A stretch of 14,600 nt of DNA. Source: Candidatus Altarchaeum sp. (GTDB lineage Archaea; Altiarchaeota; Altiarchaeia; Altiarchaeales; Altiarchaeaceae). Shown one piece after another: positions 4,647 to 5,978 of this stretch. Numbering within the stretch: position 1 is the stretch's first letter; each line of letters opens with the position of its first letter. The notes beneath the pieces are model-generated. The model saw only the letters and a list, made by a program, of their open reading frames with translations, was not told the DNA's origin and searched no databases. The position numbers were made by a program, and so were the translations under genes. Where the stretch lies: contig JAGTWP010000012.1 in NCBI GenBank assembly GCA_018260755.1, positions 1 through 14,600 of the forward strand, read 5' to 3'.

Positions 4647-5978
4647 TTAAAACCCCCACTTCTTTAACAGACCTTCATCTTCACCGGAAGAAACGATTTT
4701 TATGACATCCTCTGTGTGTTTTATATAATTTTTTATCTTTTCTTCTATTGTCAATGCATCTTCCGTTGTGAGCGCATTTTCACCCGCTATGTCTTTATCT
4801 TCAAGGCCTTTTGAAAAAATTTCATATTTGTGCAAAGATGTTCTTATAACCTCCTTCAGAGAAAATCCGCCGAGCAAAACCAGAATGTCAAAATTTTCCT
4901 GTTCAGTTGTATAAGTAAGGGAAGCATACCTTGCAATTCCTCCTGTTGAACCGCACATATTATTTACCGCCCAGTCCTTTGTGATTCTTTCAAGTTCTTC
5001 CTGCGAGAATCGTTTTCCTATATACTTCTTCGGAGCCCGCATAATAAAGTAAGCCATCGTCGCTGTTTTTATATCCAACGGCACCATTGGATTCTTTACT
5101 GCAAAATCAATAGCGGTTTCCACATCTATAATTTCAGGGTCAAGACCCGTTGCAATGCACGGCGTAAAATGATATACTCCAAGGTTGCTCGGGATTTGGT
5201 GATAGTCGGCAACATCAACGGTTGTTTTTGATGTCTTTCCTCCCGGGGCGATCATTATATCAATTGCATCAATTATGGACCTATTTAATAGATAATACTT
5301 TTCTTCATCGGATAAAATTTTGTCGGGCGAATAACTATCGGAAGCAATTTTATTCTCTATCTGGGAATTATTTACAAGCATCAACAGGTCTGTATTTTGT
5401 TTCCAGTCCTTTCCATCAGTTGGATATTTTAATAAACGAGTCATTCCGCACATCGCATTAAAGTGTCTCTGCGGCGGCTCAACATCAAACGGCAGGACAC
5501 CTACTGAAAAAAATTTATTCTTATGTCCTGCGATTAGTGATTTTCCGTACTTTAATTCATTTATCAGATAAGGCGTGCTTCCGTTTCCAGTTCCTCCTCC
5601 CAAAGTATTAATTGTTAGTATTACATCTCCTTCAATTATTTTTAAATTTGAAATATATCTTCTTATCGTGTCAAAGTCTTCTCTTGCCTGCATCTCCCCG
5701 ACCTTCCAGACATTTCCCGCCCCGGGAGACGAACCGAATATACAAATTCTTTCTCTTTTTATCTTTTCGGAAATTTCCATAAATTTTACATCCTTTTTTA
5801 TGAGATAGTCAAAAATTTTTTCCGGATGGACATCCGCGGCAGCAGTATTTAGAAGCAAGACCCTGTCCTCAATTGCCATATTATGAAAACCCGTATGATA
5901 TTGCAGTGCAATCCTGTCCGCTCCTTCCCCTGACGCAATGATGCTCCATTTTGTCGGTTGTTCGCTTTCTTCAAACAT
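4647..5978 (-). CDS. Divergent tubulin/FtsZ-superfamily GTPase
   Basis: This is a GTP-binding, probably polymer-forming cytoskeletal protein, 443 aa. The superfamily loops appear in order: T1-like SGEGADR (16-22), NTAAADV (44-50, compare FtsZ NTD), T3 GAGN (86-89) followed by the 'VGEMQARED' segment, signature T4 GGGTGNG (127-133), VLPFDVEPPQRHFNA (161-175), the base-contacting NN (203-204), and the T7 synergy loop TVDVAD with D255 and D258. Both catalytic-type aspartates are kept, although FtsZ's leading Asn is Thr. The C-terminal half (about 280-385) fits the FtsZ/CetZ second domain. It is longer than typical archaeal FtsZ (about 370-390 aa), and I see no standard FtsZ C-terminal peptide; it ends LLKKWGF. 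It is clearly in the superfamily but not obviously FtsZ1, FtsZ2 or CetZ. It is divergent from the CBS gene at 6186. Confidence 0.85.
   Translation of the reverse strand: MFEESEQPTKWSIIASGEGADRIALQYHTGFHNMAIEDRVLLLNTAAADVHPEKIFDYLIKKDVKFMEISEKIKRERICIFGSSPGAGNVWKVGEMQAREDFDTIRRYISNLKIIEGDVILTINTLGGGTGNGSTPYLINELKYGKSLIAGHKNKFFSVGVLPFDVEPPQRHFNAMCGMTRLLKYPTDGKDWKQNTDLLMLVNNSQIENKIASDSYSPDKILSDEEKYYLLNRSIIDAIDIMIAPGGKTSKTTVDVADYHQIPSNLGVYHFTPCIATGLDPEIIDVETAIDFAVKNPMVPLDIKTATMAYFIMRAPKKYIGKRFSQEELERITKDWAVNNMCGSTGGIARYASLTYTTEQENFDILVLLGGFSLKEVIRTSLHKYEIFSKGLEDKDIAGENALTTEDALTIEEKIKNYIKHTEDVIKIVSSGEDEGLLKKWGF

Follow-up and report, generated by a model that had tools for sequence, protein, structure and literature searches.

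A divergent tubulin-superfamily GTPase of Candidatus Altarchaeum, a possible member of a proposed five-component tubulin-like system tethered to the membrane

The locus and the motifs of gene B

The window, the 14,600-nucleotide stretch of Candidatus Altarchaeum DNA analysed here, has a gene for a divergent tubulin-superfamily GTPase (called B below) at positions 5978 to 4647 of the minus strand. It starts with ATG at 5978, ends with a stop codon at 4649-4647 and encodes 443 amino acids; the plus strand is stop-rich there. Besides the open frame, its orthologs and a Pfam match (PF00091, E=2e-7) support the gene. The score of this match, 31.9 bits, is just below the cut-off of 33, while orthologs of B reach 43 and 48 bits, above it. 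PF00091 is the sole match in the Pfam search, where FtsZ_C (PF12327), CetZ_C (PF21011), Tubulin_2 (PF13809) and the tubulin C-terminal domain all give no match to B, and the NCBIfam model TIGR00065 gives 33.1 bits against its cut-off of 295.2. Among solved structures archaeal FtsZ proteins rank first, the best being FtsZ1 of Methanocaldococcus jannaschii (profile E=8e-11). Judged by its homology, B is a real member of the tubulin superfamily, beyond a chance match, and a predicted GTPase.

The motifs of the superfamily are found in order along the protein. An S2/T2-type segment, NTAAADV (residues 44-50, positions 5829 to 5849), has N44, T45 and D49 invariant in 14 members. It is followed by a T3-like PGAGN (residues 85-89, 5712 to 5726), for which P85 to N89 are reported invariant in the 14 members; haloarchaeal members have GAGN or GVGN, and members from a second archaeal lineage (see below) read SGAGNNW. 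The T4 GTP-binding signature GGGTGNG (residues 127-133, 5580 to 5600) lies within TLGGGTGNGS, which is invariant in all aligned members and in haloarchaea. In the T7-like TVDVADY (residues 253-259, 5202 to 5222), D255 and D258 are invariant, haloarchaeal members included. In FtsZ, T4 and the T7 acids work across the subunit interface in GTP hydrolysis. The conservation of T4 and both T7 acids predicts, by analogy, that B may bind and hydrolyse GTP in the same FtsZ-like manner. At the C-terminus is KKWGF (residues 439-443, 4650 to 4664), with G442 and F443 invariant and W441 nearly so (n=14 members). This motif, [K/E]xWGF or close to it, is kept in Altiarchaeum and the second lineage and is absent from haloarchaea.

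The preliminary description of this DNA had named a 443-residue protein with GGGTGNG, NTAAADV, GAGN and a T7-like TVDVAD with both aspartates, and all of these are present in the minus-strand frame. It had also noted that the usual FtsZ C-terminal peptide is missing, which is correct; the tail of B carries the WGF-type motif of its own instead. B is under strong purifying selection among Altiarchaeum genomes (dN=0.034, dS=0.495, dN/dS about 0.07). An AlphaFold2 model of B, built from four sequences that are all at least 93% identical, has a pLDDT of 30 and was left out of fold searches.

Another gene of the window, at 192-1550, encodes a glutamate dehydrogenase that scores 745 bits with the bacterial-type NADP model versus 240 bits with the archaeal GdhA model. 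These scores suggest an origin by transfer.

Distribution of family B

Near-identical B loci are found in Candidatus Altarchaeum and Altiarchaeales (98, 97, and 93% identity). In a survey of 394 archaeal genomes (profile E<=1e-20), B is found only in the genus of the window (4/4 genomes) and in a second lineage that is not of the same class, and the rest of the window's own class has no match at this threshold. Within the second lineage, 15 of 23 genomes (those ranked nearest the genome G051) have B. In the compared loci, members of the family score 700-816 bits with the profile versus at most about 51 for the next tubulin-superfamily proteins; before the haloarchaeal members came in, the score boundary of the family was sharp.

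These haloarchaeal members were found by tblastn on five plasmids (32-35% identity over 93% of the length, E down to 4e-57), the collection searched being one of 72,556 plasmid records. One of them, OE_RS12040 on plasmid pHS2 of Halobacterium salinarum R1, is an ortholog of B and is annotated as 'hypothetical protein'. No relative of B is found in the viral contigs and phages searched, and PADLOC reports nothing.

Tubulin paralogs in the Altiarchaeum genome

PF00091 matches eight times in the Altiarchaeum genome (78 contigs, 1.32 Mb, 85% complete): three FtsZ domains, B, three more divergent paralogs, and a 985-amino-acid protein with Tubulin_2 (PF13809). Two of the FtsZ domains, each complete with PF00091 and FtsZ_C, are fused in one protein of 816 amino acids (locus L009, G000:C70, 2835-5285). 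The third ftsZ is directly downstream of the fused gene (1661-2716 of the same locus). The fused frame is found in 4/4 Altiarchaeum genomes, with 826-847 amino acids open. All three FtsZ domains group with FtsZ2, and no FtsZ1 is seen. The genome also encodes SepF. The check for canonical ftsZ and sepF that the preliminary description proposed thus finds both, so that division has other candidates than B.

Further divergent tubulins are found elsewhere in Altiarchaeia. A cluster on contig C41 (L011, G000:C41:14000-33900) combines a second A-like tubulin (A2; A, P, C, and D are described below), a 409-amino-acid tubulin paralog, and the 985-amino-acid Tubulin_2 protein with homologues of C and D, two beta-propeller proteins that are secreted, and several proteins that carry signal peptides; the same cluster exists in G003 (L158). 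In this second set A2 adjoins the C homologue and the Tubulin_2 gene adjoins the D homologue. In one Altiarchaeum genome, a divergent tubulin paralog of 444 amino acids (GGGGTGNG; L157:3118-4452, G001:C82) is encoded next to a secreted protein of the PQQ type. In another Altiarchaeia genome, three divergent tubulin-superfamily genes and secreted proteins share one 6.8-kb contig (L154, G025:C184).

Phylogenetic placement

In the tree with haloarchaeal members, B forms a single clade (100/100), in which haloarchaea are sister to Altiarchaeum and the second lineage at 97/95. Over three trees the support is 100/99-100 for the B clade, 100/99-100 for the FtsZ clade, and 97-99/91-96 for the CetZ clade, and B is excluded from both the FtsZ and the CetZ clades in 3/3 trees. 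For the deepest sister group of B, AU tests leave B+FtsZ (0.23), B+CetZ (0.12), and B+A (0.18) all unrejected. The preliminary description had proposed a tubulin-superfamily lineage distinct from FtsZ and CetZ. The clade of its own, together with the absence of FtsZ_C, CetZ_C, and Tubulin_2, supports this proposal, and the phylogeny gives no firm placement of B inside either family.

Some deeper joins are seen in single trees. B joins a beta-tubulin at 95/87, where two long branches meet. The beta-tubulin-like T3 form SGAGNNW of second-lineage members hinted at a eukaryotic affinity but was set aside as evidence: archaeal FtsZ comes first in profile searches, and long branches underlie the grouping in the tree. 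Long branches are likewise involved where B joins the third haloarchaeal tubulin (see below) or L021 and L022. The latter two (from G100 and G080) are divergent tubulin proteins of 461-467 amino acids with GGGTGCG and the T7 form TTDLADY, which join B in one tree on long branches. Comparison with TubZ and PhuZ gives weak matches only (4xcq, E=6.5e-5), and the PhuZ profile matches A, not B.

Partner proteins and gene order

In the second lineage P is encoded directly 5' of B in 14 of the 15 B-bearing genomes; the remaining one has a contig edge where B starts. P has 452-480 amino acids, with a predicted N-terminal transmembrane two-helix hairpin and a long coiled-coil body. Its search against solved structures gives no informative relative, only chance coiled-coil matches. 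Upstream of P is A, a second divergent tubulin (PF00091 about 1e-24, no CetZ_C), and A>P>B are contiguous in 12 genomes. Among solved chains A comes closest to CetZ1, and its profile matches that of B weakly (E=5e-9). C and D adjoin A and are divergently transcribed. Both are predicted single-pass proteins with a signal peptide and a large exoplasmic part, which is helical in C and Ig-like in D; a C-terminal transmembrane helix is then followed by a short tail in the cytoplasm. Such a gene context points to B as part of a putative envelope-linked apparatus.

In Altiarchaeum the five components are found on five contigs: A on C78, P on C44, B on C45, C on C29, and D on C47. Because the second tubulin, the membrane partner, and the two surface proteins are on other contigs, the partners of B were invisible to the preliminary description.

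On the haloarchaeal plasmid pHS2 the order is a third tubulin (540 amino acids), genes for 454 amino acids, A, 83 amino acids, 352 amino acids, P (OE_RS12045, 690 amino acids), B, 917 amino acids, C, D, and a divergent beta-propeller gene. Both P>B and C>D adjacency are kept there, and Natrinema and Halobaculum plasmids have the same cluster order. A, B, P, and the third tubulin each match the same 5 of the 72,556 plasmid records. For C, homology between the haloarchaeal proteins and those of the other groups is weak (E from 2.5e-9 to 5e-15, the protein set being small).

Canonical CetZ is also encoded in the second lineage, matching CetZ_C (PF21011) at 5e-65 and 7e-28. In two loci of this lineage (L133 and L134), three CetZ-related genes stand in tandem, two of them separated by a gene for a small secreted protein. 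FtsZ1, FtsZ2, and the A/B pair are present in these genomes too, which brings each to about seven tubulin-superfamily genes.

Co-occurrence of the components

P is found in 15 of the 394 archaeal genomes, and every one of these belongs to the 17 that have B. The other two of the 17, which have no P, are both drafts (G002, 87% complete; G107, where B is at a contig edge). Strong matches of A are found in 17 of the 394, 16 of them shared with B. The exceptions are G026, which has A and C without B, P, and D, and G107, which has B, C, and D without A and P; with G002, these drafts are 74-88% complete. The eight nearest genomes without B are also without P and C, and for D they show one weak Ig-type match only. 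The hypergeometric p for the co-occurrence is about 1e-25, a value that ignores phylogeny and is not to be read literally, and co-loss inside one operon does not count as independent evidence. The strongest argument that the five components would work together is that all five are retained after their dispersal in Altiarchaeum.

Discussion

Homology, motifs, the clade, the operon, and co-occurrence over three archaeal groups are consistent with B belonging to a tubulin-like system of five components (A, B, P, C, and D) that is tethered to the membrane and linked to surface proteins, and we give this reading about an even chance. From gene order and co-occurrence we infer that the five proteins may interact physically. 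The proposed mechanism is as follows. A and B would bind GTP and polymerise at the inner face of the membrane, jointly or in an alternating or regulatory fashion. P would tether the A/B filament to the membrane, and the filament would position or link the C and D surface proteins. The outcome would be a trans-envelope scaffold for shape, polarity, or surface organisation, apart from the FtsZ/SepF division ring. Polymerisation, GTP hydrolysis, tethering, the surface link, and any role in shape, adhesion, or division are all predictions from sequence. A stronger form of the proposal is tentative and rather unlikely: that the five proteins make up a machine spanning the envelope, with a GTPase filament of two tubulins inside the cell that would be coupled mechanically, through the membrane, to the surface proteins. 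To our knowledge, no such use of a tubulin-superfamily filament is described in prokaryotes.

The alternative that fares best, itself distinctly unlikely, is that A and B keep the fold but no longer form filaments, and that they recruit surface proteins by way of P, as scaffolds or switches dependent on GTP. The high divergence between A and B (profile match E=5e-9) would fit this, as would the lack of a recognisable C-terminal polymerisation domain, but B strictly keeps T4 and both acids of T7, which would be odd for a monomeric switch.

B may also be an accessory division protein, a diverged FtsZ-like subunit that joins the FtsZ paralogs and SepF at the division ring. Archaeal FtsZ1 and FtsZ2 (PF00091 + PF12327) do share with B the GTPase core, the GGGTGxG T4, and the D-x-x-D acid pair of T7; they are its best solved matches, and the same genome encodes FtsZ paralogs and SepF. 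However, B lacks FtsZ_C, is outside the FtsZ clade, and has another C-terminus. In the loci examined it never adjoins ftsZ or sepF, its constant neighbour being P, a membrane coiled-coil protein, and not SepF. Most archaea with FtsZ are without B, and we consider the division role improbable.

That B is a CetZ-like protein with a CetZ-type role in shape, its neighbours being incidental, seems very unlikely. Like the haloarchaeal cell-shape tubulins of the CetZ family (PF21011), B is an archaeal tubulin-superfamily paralog present in addition to two FtsZ, its partner A is closest to CetZ1 among solved chains, and Altiarchaeota proteins are called CetZ-like in earlier work (PMC9871819). B itself, however, has no PF21011 match and is outside the CetZ clade; canonical CetZ is co-resident in genomes of the second lineage, and the neighbourhood of B is conserved across lineages.

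The most doubtful reading is that of a mobile or plasmid-maintenance module of haloarchaeal megaplasmids, a TubZ-like segregation system moved between archaea: TubZ and PhuZ are tubulin-superfamily proteins with segregation-type roles, the distribution is patchy, and the haloarchaeal copies are all plasmid-borne (plasmids being the collection searched), but no TubR-like regulator is recognised near the cluster, which encodes many signal peptides and exoplasmic domains, and the locus is stable in several second-lineage families and its genes are dispersed in Altiarchaeum.

The five-component reading can be compared with other known systems. BtubA and BtubB of Prosthecobacter, which are close to eukaryotic tubulins, are encoded in an operon as two different tubulins with a third helical protein. 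The A/B/P set is similar in having two tubulins encoded with a helical third protein; it differs in that A and B are distant from each other and P is a predicted membrane protein. FtsZl1 has about 1000 amino acids with a coiled coil and a helical C-terminus, and its neighbours have vWA, kinase, and OmpA domains (Makarova & Koonin 2010, PMC2875224). FtsZl1/Tubulin_2 (PF13809) proteins are, like B, divergent tubulin-superfamily GTPases encoded with membrane-associated proteins, and belong to membrane-remodelling systems. B, in contrast, has 443 amino acids, no PF13809, a T7 that is kept, and other neighbours; the FtsZl1/Tubulin_2-type protein of the Altiarchaeum genome is the 985-residue one of L011.

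Santana-Molina et al. 2023 (PMC9871819) describe Altiarchaeota proteins of a CetZ-like kind and, in Halobacterota, a Halo.Tub group with coiled-coil neighbours and quasi-tandem copies. A is probably among these Halo.Tub/CetZ-like groups, and the third haloarchaeal tubulin possibly so. The text compared mentions neither a system of five components nor a P-B pair nor conservation across lineages. Single tubulins of such a kind (CetZ-like, Halo.Tub) are already known; the five-component system was not found described in the openly licensed literature searched, nor was B by name; an earlier description elsewhere is possible. Patchy non-canonical proteins are reported in DPANN (Brown & Duggin 2023, PMC9856176). 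It is also reported that the Halobacterium gene cetZ5 (VNG6260G) changes in expression over growth (PMC7439475).

Systems with scattered parts, as in Altiarchaeum, escape a reading of single windows. Halobacterium salinarum R1 encodes all components on pHS2, mostly as hypothetical proteins, making deletion, tagging, and imaging feasible in a well-established, genetically tractable laboratory strain. Archaeal cytoskeletons are understood almost solely through FtsZ and CetZ. If true, the proposed system would add to these a further family of the tubulin superfamily, one that has a membrane partner and surface proteins of its own and is conserved in a subsurface archaeon, a second lineage, and haloarchaea.
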